NCBI RefSeq assembly: GCF_000337915.1 | Contig: NZ_AOJE01000011.1 | Location: 30,523-94,522, forward strand | Length of the DNA: 64,000 nt | Direction of reading: 5' to 3' | DNA from: Halorubrum saccharovorum DSM 1137 | GTDB taxonomy: Archaea; Halobacteriota; Halobacteria; Halobacteriales; Haloferacaceae | Part shown: positions 7,045 through 12,995 of the stretch, piece after piece | How positions within the stretch are numbered: the first letter of the stretch is position 1 | How the letters are laid out: the number at the start of each line of letters is the position of its first letter | Translations under genes and position numbers: made by a program | Notes under the pieces: generated by a model | Told to the model about the DNA's origin: nothing | The model's database searches: none | What the model saw: the letters and a program-made list of their open reading frames with translations, nothing else

Positions 7045-7809
7045 TCAGAGCGCGGACGCGATGTGGCGGTCGATCCGAGAGACCAGTTCCGGGCGGAACG
7101 TCCAGAAGCCGTCCCACACGTTCGGCTCGTCTTCGAGGGCGACGAGCGCGGCGGGGCGGCCGACATCCGACTCCGGCGGCGTGAAGACGACGAACCACGA
7201 TCGGCGGTAGGGGTACGACCGACCCCGGTGGACCGTCACCGGGAGCGACGCCGACGGGTCCGCGTCGCCGATCCCGTAGACGTGGACGTCGACGCCGGCG
7301 TTACCGAGGGCCTCGTACACCTTTCGGGTCCCGCGTTCGTCTCGGATCCGGGAGAGGCGCTGGAAGGACGCGCGGAGCGTCCCGCCGCCCGCCTCGGCCG
7401 CGATCCGCTCGATGACGCGGGAGACGACGACCAACAGCAGCTTCTCCTTGTTCGAATGGGGGTACCCCCGGAGCCGGAAGGGGACCTCGTCGAGGCGGGC
7501 GAGCACGTCCGGGAGAACGACCTCGTCGAGGTCGATCGCGCCGGTCTTGAACAGGTCGGAGTTGATCAGCAGGACCGAGTCGAGCAGGTCGTCGAGCGTG
7601 GAGCGAGCGATCACCTCGCCGTCCTCGACGAGGATGACGACGTCCGAGTCGGTGTCCGGGATGTCGCGCTCGGTGATCGCGACCGACTGCTCCTCGAGGA
7701 GGGAGTCGAGGAGGCTCCGAACCGGCTCCGGCTCGGTCCGGTTGACGACGACGAGCGACCGGCTCGGGGCGTCGATCTCGTCGAAGAAGCCGCGCAGGGA
7801 GTCAGTCAT
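7045..7809 (-). CDS. DICT sensory-domain protein
   Basis: A 254-residue protein. The segment from about residue 112 (RLRGYPHSNKEKLLLVVVSRVIERIAAEAG) through FQRLSRI and YEALGNAGVDVHVYGIGD matches the DICT domain, a presumed sensory domain in diguanylate cyclases and two-component systems. The first 110 residues form a haloarchaea-specific N-terminal half of unknown role. No kinase or HTH domain is attached, so database labels calling such proteins histidine kinases would be misleading. It stands alone between the epimerase (convergent) and the CinA-like gene. Confidence 0.78.
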   Translation of the reverse strand: MTDSLRGFFDEIDAPSRSLVVVNRTEPEPVRSLLDSLLEEQSVAITERDIPDTDSDVVILVEDGEVIARSTLDDLLDSVLLINSDLFKTGAIDLDEVVLPDVLARLDEVPFRLRGYPHSNKEKLLLVVVSRVIERIAAEAGGGTLRASFQRLSRIRDERGTRKVYEALGNAGVDVHVYGIGDADPSASLPVTVHRGRSYPYRRSWFVVFTPPESDVGRPAALVALEDEPNVWDGFWTFRPELVSRIDRHIASAL

Positions 7810-8688: not shown

Positions 8689-9012
8689 CGCCCGACCGTA
8701 GGGGCGGCGCACGGATGTGCGTTTCCCGTCGGCCGCGAAGCTCACCGGAATGATGATTAGTAGTAGTTGAAAACACGGCTATTCTATTCAGCAGCATCAC
8801 CTAGACTTCAATTCTTTTTAATTCTATACCATGAACGAATGAATCTGGCACTGTTTCACACTCTTTTTGTCTCTTTTTACAGACGATGTGGTGCTAATGT
8901 GATCGTCAACACCAACCCAGAACTCCTCATTCAAGTGTAGTTCACCAACAATCTCCATCTCACAAGCGTTGGAAAGAAAGAGGACTGGAGCGTGTTTTAA
9001 TGCCGGTTAGTC
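8689..9012. other. AT-rich intergenic region with a possible small ORF relic
   Basis: This 324-base stretch is clearly lower in GC than its left flank. On the minus strand an open frame of 44 codons runs from ATG at 8958 to TAG at 8824, beginning MEIVGELHLNEEF; the same frame stays open further upstream to a stop near 9006 without another ATG. The translation looks protein-like rather than Arg/Ala low complexity, but no ribosome-binding site or promoter was seen. It may be a decayed gene fragment. It marks the left edge of the AT-richer accessory patch. Confidence 0.35.
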
Positions 9013-9672
9013 TTATTCGCCGTTGACTGTCTGGTTCTCTGGAGGCAGGTCGATCCTGATAATCTCTTCTGAGGGGACGGTCGTGGTGGTTTCGTCGTCG
9101 TCTTCGACTTCGAAGGTGAAGGTGCCGTCTCCCCCACGTTCAATCGATCTGTCGTTCAGCTCTATCTGGGTGGCTTGGTCAGCTGTGAGTCTCGTGGCGT
9201 TTTCTTCATTGTTCGTGTTCTGACTGTGTTCCGTATCGTTGAGATCGTAGTCGGTTGCGTCGATCGTGATGGCGTTGGAGGCGTTGAGTTTCACCGGTTC
9301 ATCGATGTCGGTGACCTGCTTCGTTGAGAGGTTGACGTCGGTGATGACCCGTGTCTCGTCCGGCTCCTCAATCGGAGCAACCTTGACGTAGATCACATTC
9401 TCGTCCAACCCGGAGGCCCATACCTCGAAATGAACGGCAGCTACCTCATCGAAGTAACTCCGGACTGTCTGGTTCGCCCAAGCTGTCTCGATGGCCTGAT
9501 CGACCTCTTCATCGCTCACCTCTCCGGGGTTGATGACGTCAACGGTGTAGTTGGCTGGCAATGCATCATCCGACGCTGTGTCGGCCGTAGGAGTGTCCAT
9601 TGCGGCGACGACACTACCCGTACCGAGGGCGAGCAGTGCGGCGACCGCGAGGACGGCAAGTTTCGTGCGCAT
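9013..9672 (-). CDS. Secreted protein of unknown function, relative of the gene at 10574
   Basis: A 219-residue protein with a signal peptide (MRTKLAVLAVAALLALGTGSVVAA) and about seven N-glycosylation sequons, so it is probably exported. A helix-like block reading SDEEVDQAIETAWANQTV is followed by a strand block ending TDVNLSTKQVTDI; this pattern recalls PepSY-like folds. Comparable blocks occur in the secreted protein at 10574, also 219 residues. The C-terminus GTFTFEVEDDDETTT is very acidic. GC content is lower than in neighbouring genes. It lies in the opposite orientation to its presumed relative, on the other side of a membrane-bound regulator. Function unknown. Confidence 0.72.
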   Translation of the reverse strand: MRTKLAVLAVAALLALGTGSVVAAMDTPTADTASDDALPANYTVDVINPGEVSDEEVDQAIETAWANQTVRSYFDEVAAVHFEVWASGLDENVIYVKVAPIEEPDETRVITDVNLSTKQVTDIDEPVKLNASNAITIDATDYDLNDTEHSQNTNNEENATRLTADQATQIELNDRSIERGGDGTFTFEVEDDDETTTTVPSEEIIRIDLPPENQTVNGE

Positions 9673-9693
9673 AGTTCGTCAATCACCTGGTAG

Positions 9694-9745
9694 CGTGGAG
9701 ACACCACCGAAACCCCCAAACCCTGGAGGAGGGGTGCTCTCCACG
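9694..9745 (-). other. Leader hairpin upstream of the secreted-protein gene
   Basis: CGTGGAGA at 9694-9701 and its exact reverse complement TCTCCACG at 9738-9745 extend inward (CACC/GGTG with one bulged base) to a stem of about 12 pairs. It sits between the operator-like site at 9782 and the start codon at 9672, so the transcript would carry it in its 5' leader if transcription starts near the site. It may control translation or stability. No homology to a known riboswitch is recognised. Confidence 0.45.
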
Positions 9746-9781
9746 TAGACCGTTAGATGAAAGACCTGAAAGTGATTGATT

Positions 9782-9817
9782 GGAAACGCATTACGGAACC
9801 GGTTTGGAACCCGTTTC
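9782..9817. promoter_or_regulatory. Operator-like site A (shared with site B)
   Basis: The site contains GAAACG at 9783-9788, the palindrome AACCGGTT at 9797-9804 and CGTTTC (reverse complement of GAAACG) at 9812-9817. The same pieces, including the exact run GAAACGCATT, recur at site B upstream of the regulator gene and its divergent neighbour. It lies about 110 bases before the start of the secreted-protein gene at 9672. I infer a binding site for the winged-helix regulator encoded at 9838. Confidence 0.55.
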
Positions 9818-9837
9818 AGCCGGTAGTTCACCGAAGA

Positions 9838-10425
9838 TCATGTGAGGACGACGACGTTACCCATCCCTTTGCGTTTCCGCTCGACCAGGCCCTTGCTTTC
9901 GAGGGTATCCAAGGTTCGGCTGACCGTAGCCTTAGACAACTCGGTTCCCTCGACGATATCCCGCTGTGGAAGTTCACCATCGGCTTCAAGCACGACGGTG
10001 TAGATTATTTCCTCGTTGTTGTGTAACCGGTCAACCGTCTCCTCCCACCGTTCCTCAGGGGCCGTTGTGTTGTGCTGGACAGCGCCGCTGCCGTGTCCGT
10101 CACTGACCGCTTGTCGTGTCGGTGGGTGTTCTCCGTCGTTTGCGATGGGATGCGGTGTCGCTGACTCGGTTGTCGGGACTGTGGTGGTGTGGTCGTGGAG
10201 TAAGAGGTAGGTGCCGCTGGCACCGAGGAGGGAGGCTGCGACAGTGATGAGGGCGACGTCGGTGTACGTGAAGTACTGGCCGAGCTGGGTGGTTTGCGCG
10301 CCGTTGTCACCGATCGAGACCATAACCGGTGAGGGGGTGATCAGTTGGATGGCAAGCACGAGGACCGCGGCGACGAACGCGGACGCCGCGATAAGGCGCC
10401 TGCCGCGGAGGGCTGACACGTCCAT
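9838..10425 (-). CDS. Membrane-anchored winged-helix transcriptional regulator
   Basis: A 195-residue protein with two transmembrane segments at about residues 10-28 and 51-72, separated by a short external loop, then a flexible polar linker of about 50 residues and a C-terminal winged helix of the haloarchaeal TrmB/MarR-like (DUF7343) type: QRDIVEGTELSKATVSRTLD then LESKGLVERKRKGMGNVV. The DNA-binding domain should be cytoplasmic and the loop external, the layout of a one-component membrane sensor. Start chosen at 10425 (MDVSALRG); a longer frame to 10668 runs across the promoter region. It is flanked on both sides by genes for secreted proteins and by operator sites A and B, suggesting it controls them and itself. 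Confidence 0.83.
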   Translation of the reverse strand: MDVSALRGRRLIAASAFVAAVLVLAIQLITPSPVMVSIGDNGAQTTQLGQYFTYTDVALITVAASLLGASGTYLLLHDHTTTVPTTESATPHPIANDGEHPPTRQAVSDGHGSGAVQHNTTAPEERWEETVDRLHNNEEIIYTVVLEADGELPQRDIVEGTELSKATVSRTLDTLESKGLVERKRKGMGNVVVLT

Positions 10426-10486
10426 ATGAACAGGGTAATGAGCACTCCGTCTAATGCGTATCGCTCTTTCGCTGTAAAACCGGGAT

Positions 10487-10533
10487 GAAACGCCTGTGAA
10501 ACGCATTTCCAACCGTTTCCCAACCGGTTTCAC
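10487..10533. promoter_or_regulatory. Operator-like site B in divergent promoter region
   Basis: Two direct GAAACG copies (10487-10492, 10498-10503), an inverted CGTTTC (10514-10519), the palindrome AACCGGTT (10522-10529) and an outer inverted repeat GTGAAAC/GTTTCAC (10496-10502, 10527-10533) are packed into 47 bases. This lies midway between the divergent regulator gene (start 10425) and secreted-protein gene (start 10574). The sequence shares GAAACGCATT and AACCGGTT with site A. I infer that the regulator binds here. Confidence 0.6.
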
Positions 10534-10573
10534 GCAGTACTGATGTGGTCTTTCACCTAAGTCCAAAACACGA

Positions 10574-11233
10574 ATGGCATCCGATCTACAGTCCCGTCTC
10601 ACCCTGTTGGTGGTCCTTGCCGTTCTCGGTGTCGGGCTTGCTGTCATCGGCACCGCGGTCGGTGACACTACTCCTCACGACCCTTCCGGGCCGGGTACAG
10701 CGTTCGTCGTGTCTGAAGACAACGTCACCGTCGAACAGGGTGATCAGCAGGTTACCGTCGTCGACAACATGACCCGGGTCGACAGTATCGAAATCGAACA
10801 ACAAGGAAGTGGAACCTATCAGGTGAACACGGAGACCGAGGACCCACTGACGGACAGCGAACGCAGCCACGCCAAAGCGATCGCCCATGACAACGCGACC
10901 GTACAGCAGGTACTTCAGGACGTGGAACAGTACGAACTGACCGTTGAACCGATCCACAAACTGACCGTGGACTCTGTCCAGACCACGACCTTCACCGGCC
11001 TCAATAGTACCTCGACGGAAAATGAGACAGCCGAGGGAGCGGAGACGTTCACCCTCACAGTCGAAGACAGTGACGAGACAGGTACGGTCACCGTCGACCG
11101 TCATCCCGAATACGTCAAAGGCGAGGCCGCCATCAGGATCCGCAACCCTTCCACCGACGAGATGTATTACTCTGCCACAGTCGACCTCGAAAACGAGACT
11201 GTCACAGATATCACCGACTGGCGTTCGGATTAA
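10574..11233 (+). CDS. Secreted protein of unknown function, relative of the gene at 9013
   Basis: A 219-residue protein with an N-terminal hydrophobic segment (LTLLVVLAVLGVGLAVIG) that is a signal peptide or anchor, then an acidic, Thr/Val-rich extracellular part with several N-glycosylation sequons. The block LTDSERSHAKAIAHDNATV aligns in spacing with SDEEVDQAIETAWANQTV of the gene at 9013, and the last strand YSATVDLENETVTDI with TDVNLSTKQVTDI, so the two look like diverged relatives with PepSY-like features. It is transcribed away from the membrane-anchored regulator, sharing operator site B. No enzymatic motif is visible. Confidence 0.72.
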   Translation: MASDLQSRLTLLVVLAVLGVGLAVIGTAVGDTTPHDPSGPGTAFVVSEDNVTVEQGDQQVTVVDNMTRVDSIEIEQQGSGTYQVNTETEDPLTDSERSHAKAIAHDNATVQQVLQDVEQYELTVEPIHKLTVDSVQTTTFTGLNSTSTENETAEGAETFTLTVEDSDETGTVTVDRHPEYVKGEAAIRIRNPSTDEMYYSATVDLENETVTDITDWRSD

Positions 11234-11261
11234 CGCTGGTCGTCCTACAGGAGAGAGCCAC

Positions 11262-11575
11262 TGTGGCGGGATTTCAACGGTAGCTGTCGATTCGCAACAG
11301 CAGACGACGAAGTGGTACATCAACGCGTACCTCCACGCCGACCGGGACGATGTCCTCCCGCTCGACGAGAGCGCCTTGGATGGCCTCCAGTTCGGCGGGA
11401 ACGCAACTACGGCTACGGCATCACGCGGCTGAAAGACACGCAGGTTGTAGACCTGGAGGCGTTGGACTACTCGCGTCTCGAAGGCGGCGAGGCGTTCATC
11501 CTCAAACTCGTGACGCCGTTCGTGTTGAAGTCGGAGGACCCGAACGCTCACGACCAAGACGTGCCGTGGTGGTGA
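11262..11575 (+). pseudogene. Frameshifted gene remnant
   Basis: Two consecutive reading frames together read like one protein fragment. The first gives KWYINAYLHADRDDVLPLDE and then LQFGG; after a one-base shift near 11398 the second gives RNYGYGITRLKDTQVVDLEA and continues to PNAHDQDVPWW before the stop at 11575. There is no start codon or upstream part, so this is the 3' end of a lost gene. The GG(E)RNYGYG loop and FILKLVTPFVLKS strand recall Gly-rich loops of RAMP-type (Cas7/Cmr-like) proteins, but that assignment is weak. It adds to the picture of a gene-turnover spot at 8.7-11.6 kb. Confidence 0.5.
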
Positions 11576-11675
11576 AGGAGGACCGCCGCCCGCGTTCAGG
11601 CCCACGCCCGTTCCCGAACTGCGGCGCGGGTGAGCGGGAGAACGGAGAACGATCGGGCGGCGAATCGGCAGCGGT

Positions 11676-12995
11676 CTAGTCGGGCGCGGTCGCCGCGTCC
11701 GCCTCCAGCCCGGAGCCGCTCGGCGGTCGGAGGAGGAGCGCCGCCAGCCCCGCGGCGATCGCGAGGCCGCCCCCGAGCGCGAACGTCGGGACCCAGCCGG
11801 CCGTCGCGACGAGGTAGCCGGTCACGGTGCCGGCGAAAATCCCCCCGCCGACCTTCGCGGTGTAGAGGACCGCGTAGTTGCCGGAGGAGTTACGCGACCC
11901 GTAGTAGTCCGCGATCACCGACGGGAAGTAGACGAACAGCGGCGAGGAGAAGAACATCGCCGCCATCACCAGCGCGACGAACGCGACCCCGGCCTCGGCC
12001 CGCCCGGCGCCGATCAGCGCGAGCCGGAACACCCCGGCGAGCACGAAGGAGGCGGCCATCACCTTCTTCCGGTCGAAGCGGTCGGAGGCCTCCCCGAGGA
12101 TCATCCGCGAGACGCCGGCGGCGACGGGAAGCAGGGTCGCGGCCGCGGTCGCGACGACCGCCGCCAGGCCGAACTGCTCGGCGAATCTGACGACGTTGGC
12201 GATGACGATCAGGTCGGCCCCGGCCATCGCGACGAACATCGCGTACAGCAGCCAGAACTGCCACGTCGACAGCATCTCGCGGGTCGTGTACGCGCGCCCG
12301 CGAAGCGAGGCCGCGATCCCCTCGTCGTCGCCGTCGTCGTCGCGGTCCTCCAGCCCGAGCCAGTCGTCAGGCGGGTCCCGGAGGAGGTACGCGCCGACGA
12401 GCGTCACGACGAGGATACCGATCCCGACGTTCCGGAGCACGTCGCTGTAGGCGGCCACGGTGGCGTTCGCGCGGACGTACGGGACCACGAGCGCGCTGCC
12501 GCCAGCGAACGCCATCGTCCCGACGCCCGTGGTGAGCCCCGTGCGGTCAGGGAACCACTTGACGGCGGTGTTGACCGCGACCGTGTACACGATCCCCACG
12601 CCGATCGCGCCGAGCGAGTACAGGAGGTAGAGCTGCCAGAGGGTCGTCGCGTACGCGAGGCCGATATACCCGCCGCCGGCGAGCAGGGCGGCGAGGAACG
12701 TGAGCGCACCCGGCCCGCGGCTGTCGCGCCACTTCCCGGCGGGGAACTGCGAGAGCGACTGGAAGACGACGTAGAAGGAGAACACCGCGCCGAGCGCCGG
12801 GAGCGCGAGGTCGAGACTCTCGGCCAGCGGCTGTTCGATCGACGACCAGACGTACTGATAGGGGCTCACCGCCGCCATCATCCCCGCGGCGGCGACGATC
12901 TGCCACCAGCGCGAGAAGCCGAGGATGTCGGCGGCCCGCCCGGCGTAGTCGACGCCTGCGTCCTCCGGGGGAGCGCCGCCGTCAGTCATCGTCAC
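11676..12995 (-). CDS. MFS transporter, OFA (oxalate/formate antiporter)-like
   Basis: A 439-residue membrane protein with about 12 transmembrane segments. Blocks such as GAVFSFYVVFQSLSQFPAGK, VNTAVKWFPDRTGLTTGVG and STWQFWLLYAMF follow the OFA-type branch of the MFS, which exchanges small carboxylates, although the substrate cannot be predicted. A central acidic loop (LEDRDDDGDDEG) is a halophilic insertion. MTMTDGG and MTDGG (two codons later) are both possible starts. The gene diverges from the FAD oxidoreductase gene at 13221. Confidence 0.87.
   Translation of the reverse strand: MTMTDGGAPPEDAGVDYAGRAADILGFSRWWQIVAAAGMMAAVSPYQYVWSSIEQPLAESLDLALPALGAVFSFYVVFQSLSQFPAGKWRDSRGPGALTFLAALLAGGGYIGLAYATTLWQLYLLYSLGAIGVGIVYTVAVNTAVKWFPDRTGLTTGVGTMAFAGGSALVVPYVRANATVAAYSDVLRNVGIGILVVTLVGAYLLRDPPDDWLGLEDRDDDGDDEGIAASLRGRAYTTREMLSTWQFWLLYAMFVAMAGADLIVIANVVRFAEQFGLAAVVATAAATLLPVAAGVSRMILGEASDRFDRKKVMAASFVLAGVFRLALIGAGRAEAGVAFVALVMAAMFFSSPLFVYFPSVIADYYGSRNSSGNYAVLYTAKVGGGIFAGTVTGYLVATAGWVPTFALGGGLAIAAGLAALLLRPPSGSGLEADAATAPD

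Follow-up and report, generated by a model that had tools for sequence, protein, structure and literature searches.

In the haloarchaeon Halorubrum saccharovorum DSM 1137, a compact cassette of three genes lies in a 64,000-nucleotide stretch of genomic DNA (here called the window, to which all positions refer). It encodes a membrane-anchored winged-helix regulator and two exported proteins, termed P2 and P3. On balance, we favour the view that the cassette is a self-contained, autoregulated archaeal transmembrane transcription regulator of the co-component type, in which P3 would be the tethered co-sensor and P2 the secreted output. The window belongs to contig C11 of a draft genome (72 contigs, 3.42 Mb, 99.4% complete). 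This three-gene unit of many salt-loving archaea seems not to have been described before. No description of it was found in literature searches, whose coverage excluded most subscription journals, and in the laboratory strains Haloferax mediterranei (pHME505; E6P09_RS15890, RS15895 and RS15900) and Haloarcula hispanica (pHH400; HAH_RS19035-19045) its genes carry only the labels ‘MarR family transcriptional regulator’ and ‘hypothetical protein’.

The locus had previously been read from its letters alone, and the three open reading frames (ORFs) noticed in this sequence-only reading were all found in place (Table 1). As it had said, the genes of P2 and P3 point in opposite directions, away from one another; nevertheless, the regulator shares the direction of P2, at a gap of 165 bp, and only P3 diverges from it. 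Among close copies, all three genes are under purifying selection, with ratios of nonsynonymous to synonymous substitution (dN/dS) of 0.20, 0.25 and 0.26.

The regulator carries its DNA-binding domain and its membrane segments in one polypeptide, as transmembrane transcription regulators (TTRs) do. Hydropathy places two membrane segments in its N-terminal part, separated by a conserved outer loop of about 25 residues, and the C-terminal winged helix matches Pfam DUF7343 (PF24034) with 49 bits against a gathering cut-off of 27.6, as well as MarR_2. Both methods thus agree with the architecture first proposed. The recognition helix LSKATVSR is near-invariant across the aligned regulators. In the regulator, pairwise identity is 0.46-0.50 over the membrane parts and the outer loop; the anchor of P3 has 0.45, while the linkers are lower at 0.21-0.23 (regulator linker 0.23). 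PADLOC also matched the regulator to CARF/Csa3 proteins; these were set aside as generic winged helix-turn-helix matches.

The association of the three genes is very regular. A full-length regulator is present in 21 of 146 related genomes; P3 adjoins it in each of them, and the other 125 genomes have neither (Fisher p about 1e-25, uncorrected for relatedness). P2, recognised by similarity or by position and promoter, is also found beside the regulator in 21/21. In two genomes besides these, diverged regulators have other small exported proteins as neighbours. Among named genomes, a scan gave 56 loci, mostly spread over many haloarchaeal genera; about 40 named haloarchaeal loci, several of them on plasmids, add to the 21 genomes in agreeing with the association. 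At the haloarchaeal loci, P3 is present every time save for one locus cut by a contig end, and P2 nearly always; it is weak or absent at L106, at L132 and at L122, where the contig ends. Thus, the regulator does not routinely occur without its partners, an outcome that would have spoken against the unit. Halorubrum Atlit-26R and Natrialba chahannaoensis hold two cassettes each. At another locus, L189, two regulator genes stand in tandem and each is paired with its own exported PepSY-like protein, which suggests a duplicated cassette.

Strong evidence for regulation comes from the gaps between the genes. At 21 loci, the cassette gaps contain 130 GAAAC/GTTTC boxes, as against 13.3 expected from the flanks. 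Boxes in the same direction are spaced by 11 or 22 bp, and GAAAC-to-GTTTC pairs by 7, 18, 29 or 40 bp; the boxes thus form a helically phased (11-bp) array with inversion. At both P2 and P3 of most divergent-type loci, a putative core promoter element, TCTTTCAnnYAA, lies 17-18 bp downstream of the last box. Its distance to the start codon at divergent-type loci is 56-181 bp for P2 and only 21-26 bp for P3, so the P3 mRNA is probably leaderless. In a pattern search of the whole 3.42-Mb genome, the array pattern gave two exact matches, both in the cassette, and one mismatched match elsewhere; the box-18 bp-TCTTTCAnnYAA pattern gave two exact matches, and these are the two cassette promoters. As this combination occurs at no other promoter in the genome, the regulator would bind the arrays and control just the cassette, which is thus its whole predicted regulon. 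The earlier proposal that the regulator sets the amounts of the secreted proteins is strongly supported by this phased operator and core promoter, common to P2 and P3.

The near-fixed distance between array and core element favours activation. The main alternative is an autorepressor, in which the array-bound regulator would silence P2, P3 and itself until a surface event relayed by P3 released it, P2 and P3 then forming an inducible envelope-stress response. MarR/DUF7343-type winged helices are frequently repressors, and one array sits between the divergent regulator and P3 genes. However, at both P2 and P3 the last box stands upstream of the core element and not over it, which fits an upstream activator better. 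We consider the autorepressor unlikely, although it is the alternative to be taken most seriously.

Each of the exported proteins has one N-terminal membrane segment by hydropathy. In P3, this is a conserved membrane helix, and in P2, a Sec-like signal peptide. The similarity between them, claimed from the letters alone, was not visible in pairwise BLASTP, where just an acidic low-complexity stretch was aligned. Family profiles, however, matched P3 residues 80-126 to P2 residues 40-86 with an hhalign probability of 94.7% (E 6e-8), in exactly the helix block that had been named. In the AlphaFold model of P2, residues 40-127 form a strand-helix-helix-four-strand domain with a predicted local distance difference test score (pLDDT) of about 86-94 over most of its length, and the model of P3 has the same order of elements, plus a low-confidence insert. 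Profiles and element order together indicate that P2 and P3 are distantly related, where a lack of structural kinship would have counted against the proposed unit. With VIA-align, the P2 domain matched E. coli amine oxidase residues 185-281 (Z 7.5), the YpeB C-terminal domain (5.9) and the vibriolysin propeptide (5.2), structures which we take to be PepSY/cystatin-like folds. P2 had no Foldseek match at E 0.001, and the P3 model gave only noise. Searches of both proteins in Pfam, NCBIfam, PHROGs and PADLOC returned nothing convincing.

Along with the phased operator arrays and their core element, a second new finding is a predicted hairpin in the 5′ leader of the P2 mRNA. The predicted stem begins no later than nt 8 of the inferred leader in 50/50 distinct leaders, has a mean of 25 pairs as compared with 11 in dinucleotide shuffles, and ends a median of 11.5 nt before the start codon. 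The mean folding z of these leaders is -2.75, against -0.32 for the upstream regions of other genes (fixed at 95 nt). Tested singly against shuffles, only 17 of the 50 loci reach p<=0.05, and the window leader does not (p=0.23); the loci are also related and hence not independent tests. Covariation in small MAFFT alignments is limited to 1-7 pairs with double changes because the stems differ in length. The hairpin claim therefore rests on the presence of the stem at all 50 loci and on the shuffles. No known RNA family in Rfam matched the leader. A GGTCCC(C)GC stretch is conserved in the loop half of the hairpins beyond the clade of the window, for example at L078, L080, L107 and L114.

Relatives in distant archaea point to an older core made up of P3 and the regulator. 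A P3-like gene and a regulator stand adjacent on the same strand in metagenome-assembled genomes (MAGs) of peat methanogen-like archaea, in a Diapherotrites MAG and in further members of that phylum (DPANN), and this conserved pairing occurs without P2. The P3 profile matches that of the distant P3 proteins over the membrane helix and the N-terminal part (E 1.5e-8). In the peat MAGs, a lipoprotein gene lies directly upstream of the pair in an apparent operon (L131, L133, L137, L138 and L146). The lipoprotein of L133 is secreted and has a Lon_C (S16) protease domain (E 1e-14), and its counterparts at the other peat loci look alike.

The proposed mechanism is as follows. The regulator would span the membrane, its winged helix facing the cytoplasm and only about 25 residues exposed on the outer side, and so would lack a sensor domain of its own. 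With so little of it exposed, the most economical view is that a partner does the sensing, and P3 is proposed as that partner because it is the constant neighbour of the regulator and its membrane helix is conserved. P3, anchored by this helix, would thus act as co-sensor through its PepSY-like outer domain. On a surface signal, the P3-regulator complex would bind the phased array as an oligomer and activate both cassette promoters, giving more P3, which would re-set the sensor, and more P2, a freely secreted PepSY-like output. The 5′ hairpin of the P2 mRNA may add a post-transcriptional control step. Binding of the arrays by the regulator, activation, the P3-regulator contact, the effector role of P2 and a function for the hairpin are inferred. 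So is the signal, for which surface proteolysis or a peptide is a guess prompted by the fold and the Lon-like neighbour. A fuller statement, held only tentatively, is that of a kinase-free switch in which a tethered PepSY-like co-sensor gates a sensorless two-pass winged-helix protein that oligomerises on a genome-unique phased array, controls its own sensor and a secreted effector subject to mRNA hairpin control, and spreads with them as a unit. The sequence-only reading, a surface-sensing unit of PepSY-like secreted proteins and their regulator, is strongly supported for the regulatory control of P2 and P3, and weakly for its PepSY-like part; its idea that the secreted proteins present or modify the signal is a conjecture.

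Several points weigh against this co-component reading. The link among the three proteins is computational, and the start of the P2 leader is a predicted transcription start. Activation and repression cannot be told apart from the position of the operator alone. Confidence in the model of P3 is low, with a mean pLDDT of 63. The best fold match of P2 has a Z of 7.5, and values below 8 can reflect a common fold arrangement; neither P2, P3 nor the long forms of P2 gave a Pfam PepSY match at E up to 1. ‘PepSY-like’ is therefore a description of topology, shared with copper-amine-oxidase N-domains, YpeB and the vibriolysin propeptide, and not a family name. Finally, P3 is not a fixture of the wider family: the genes that follow five more distant relatives of the regulator, presumably of Methanosarcina-like lineage, encode in its place a 280-290-residue exported protein and a lipoprotein with repeats.

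The cassette probably moves horizontally, as judged from its differing sites and neighbours and its plasmid copies. The flanking genes vary from genome to genome. In the window, it occupies a variable cargo site (8760-11676) between a MoCF/CinA-like gene and a major facilitator superfamily (MFS) gene. In one genome, its two neighbours (window 8730 and 11717) are about 40 bp apart, leaving an empty site, and in three others, a different gene of roughly 290 codons is at the site. A plasmid of Halobellus limi has a regulator 94% identical, with its partners alongside and an IS6 transposase about 2.4 kb off; further plasmid copies are present in Haloferax mediterranei, Haloarcula and Halostella. 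Relatives of the cassette were sought in viruses and phages as well, and none was found; a virus origin was set aside as unsupported.

Such patchiness, with changing neighbours and plasmid carriage in other genera, could also suit a contact or antagonism module, in which P2 would be a secreted antagonist or decoy against other cells or enzymes, P3 a tethered immunity protein or receptor, and the regulator their dedicated switch. A part in conflicts has been suggested for archaeal variable islands with many secreted proteins (PMC4158269). P2 is moreover the most divergent part of the cassette, ranging from 112 to >500 residues with repeated domains; its long relatives (328 and 507 residues) look like domain repeats. 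However, among close copies P2 shows purifying selection and no surplus of amino-acid changes, neither P2 nor P3 matched a toxin or defence family, and the P3-regulator pairing is kept in archaea without P2; the module is thus improbable. Least probable is a metal- or osmolyte-responsive cassette in which an ion or small ligand would be captured outside the cell by P3 and P2, much as UipA, a PepSY protein, binds metal: some PepSY proteins bind metal (cited in PMC12714742) and the exported domains are strongly acidic (aspartate plus glutamate 19-21%), but such acidity is normal in haloarchaeal proteins and no conserved cysteine or histidine ligands stand out in the P2 and P3 alignments.

Table 1. 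Features of the cassette in the window.
Feature	Position	Strand	Basis
P2, exported, 219 aa; Sec-type signal peptide, one beta-alpha-alpha-beta4 domain (residues ~40-127), low-confidence acidic C-terminal tail	9013..9672	-	ORF, hydropathy, AlphaFold
P2 folded domain, residues 40-127, PepSY/amine-oxidase-N-like topology	9292..9555	-	AlphaFold, structure match
Predicted 5′-leader hairpin of P2 mRNA, 20 pairs	9694..9745	-	predicted folding
Putative core promoter element of P2, TCTTTCATCTAA	9753..9764	-	pattern comparison
Candidate operator array 2, P2 promoter	9783..9817	-	box count, pattern search
Regulator, membrane-anchored winged-helix protein, 195 aa	9838..10425	-	ORF, Pfam, alignment
Winged-helix domain (DUF7343/MarR), recognition helix LSKATVSR	9844..10020	-	Pfam, alignment; dN/dS 0.09
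Second membrane segment, regulator residues 55-76	10198..10263	-	hydropathy
First membrane segment, regulator residues 9-29	10339..10401	-	hydropathy, alignment
TATA-like CATTAGA, putative promoter of the regulator	10450..10456	-	sequence; function inferred from position
Candidate operator array 1, between regulator and P3 and common to both; boxes 10487, 10498, 10515, 10527	10486..10532	+	box count, pattern search
Putative core promoter element of P3, TCTTTCACCTAA, 25 bp before ATG	10549..10560	+	pattern comparison
P3, membrane-tethered exported protein, 219 aa	10574..11233	+	ORF, alignment, AlphaFold
P3 block homologous to P2 domain, residues 80-126	10811..10951	+	profile-profile

Next to P3, window positions 11260-11620 hold a decayed gene fragment, with the best part at 11382-11577. 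It shares 82% identity with an intact gene for 311 residues in another genome of the genus Halorubrum (L152, 1786-2721, minus strand), and that gene has weak profile matches to Cmr3, a type III CRISPR effector. Two genes from the cassette, at 7045-7809 on the minus strand, a protein with a DICT sensory domain is encoded.

The kinase-free route from a surface signal to transcription is poorly known in archaea, and the cassette is compact, with a predicted regulon of three genes and a clear candidate operator. With it, one could ask directly whether transcription factors are gated by PepSY-like partners tethered in the membrane. In other archaea, its relatives connect partners of this kind with a secreted Lon-like protease. 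Known systems resemble it in part. ArnR and ArnR1 of Sulfolobus, membrane-bound regulators of the archaellum, are likewise archaeal one-component regulators anchored by membrane segments (PMC6396743). In ArnR, however, the helix-turn-helix is in the N-terminal region, followed by the membrane segments (PMC13286277), the reverse of the order seen here. The target of ArnR is the archaellum, whereas that of the cassette is apparently itself. We know of no adjacent exported partner pair for ArnR. In DbfQ-DbfRS and related modules of PepSY proteins with two-component systems, a small exported PepSY protein is encoded beside a membrane sensor, and DbfQ binds and gates its neighbour DbfS (PMC12714742); DbfS, though, is a histidine kinase with the response regulator DbfR, while the cassette has no kinase, and P2 and P3 have no Pfam PepSY match. 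The C-terminal domain of the regulator is a clear member of Pfam DUF7343, but this label carries no function and is silent on the cassette. The nearest parallels are the bacterial TTRs ToxR/ToxS and TcpP/TcpH (TTRs in general, PMC10269533), for which partner-based sensing has been described (PMC10269533, PMC11323476): there, too, a DNA-binding protein acts from the membrane and is joined by the product of the neighbouring gene, a small partner anchored in the membrane and bearing an outer domain, as P3 is adjacent, co-conserved and membrane-anchored with an outer domain. The winged helix of the ToxR/ToxS type is nevertheless N-terminal and OmpR/PhoB-like, whereas that of the cassette regulator is C-terminal and of the DUF7343/MarR kind; the latter protein is also archaeal, has two membrane segments around about 25 outer residues and apparent targets limited to its own cassette, and is paired with a partner of PepSY-like topology.
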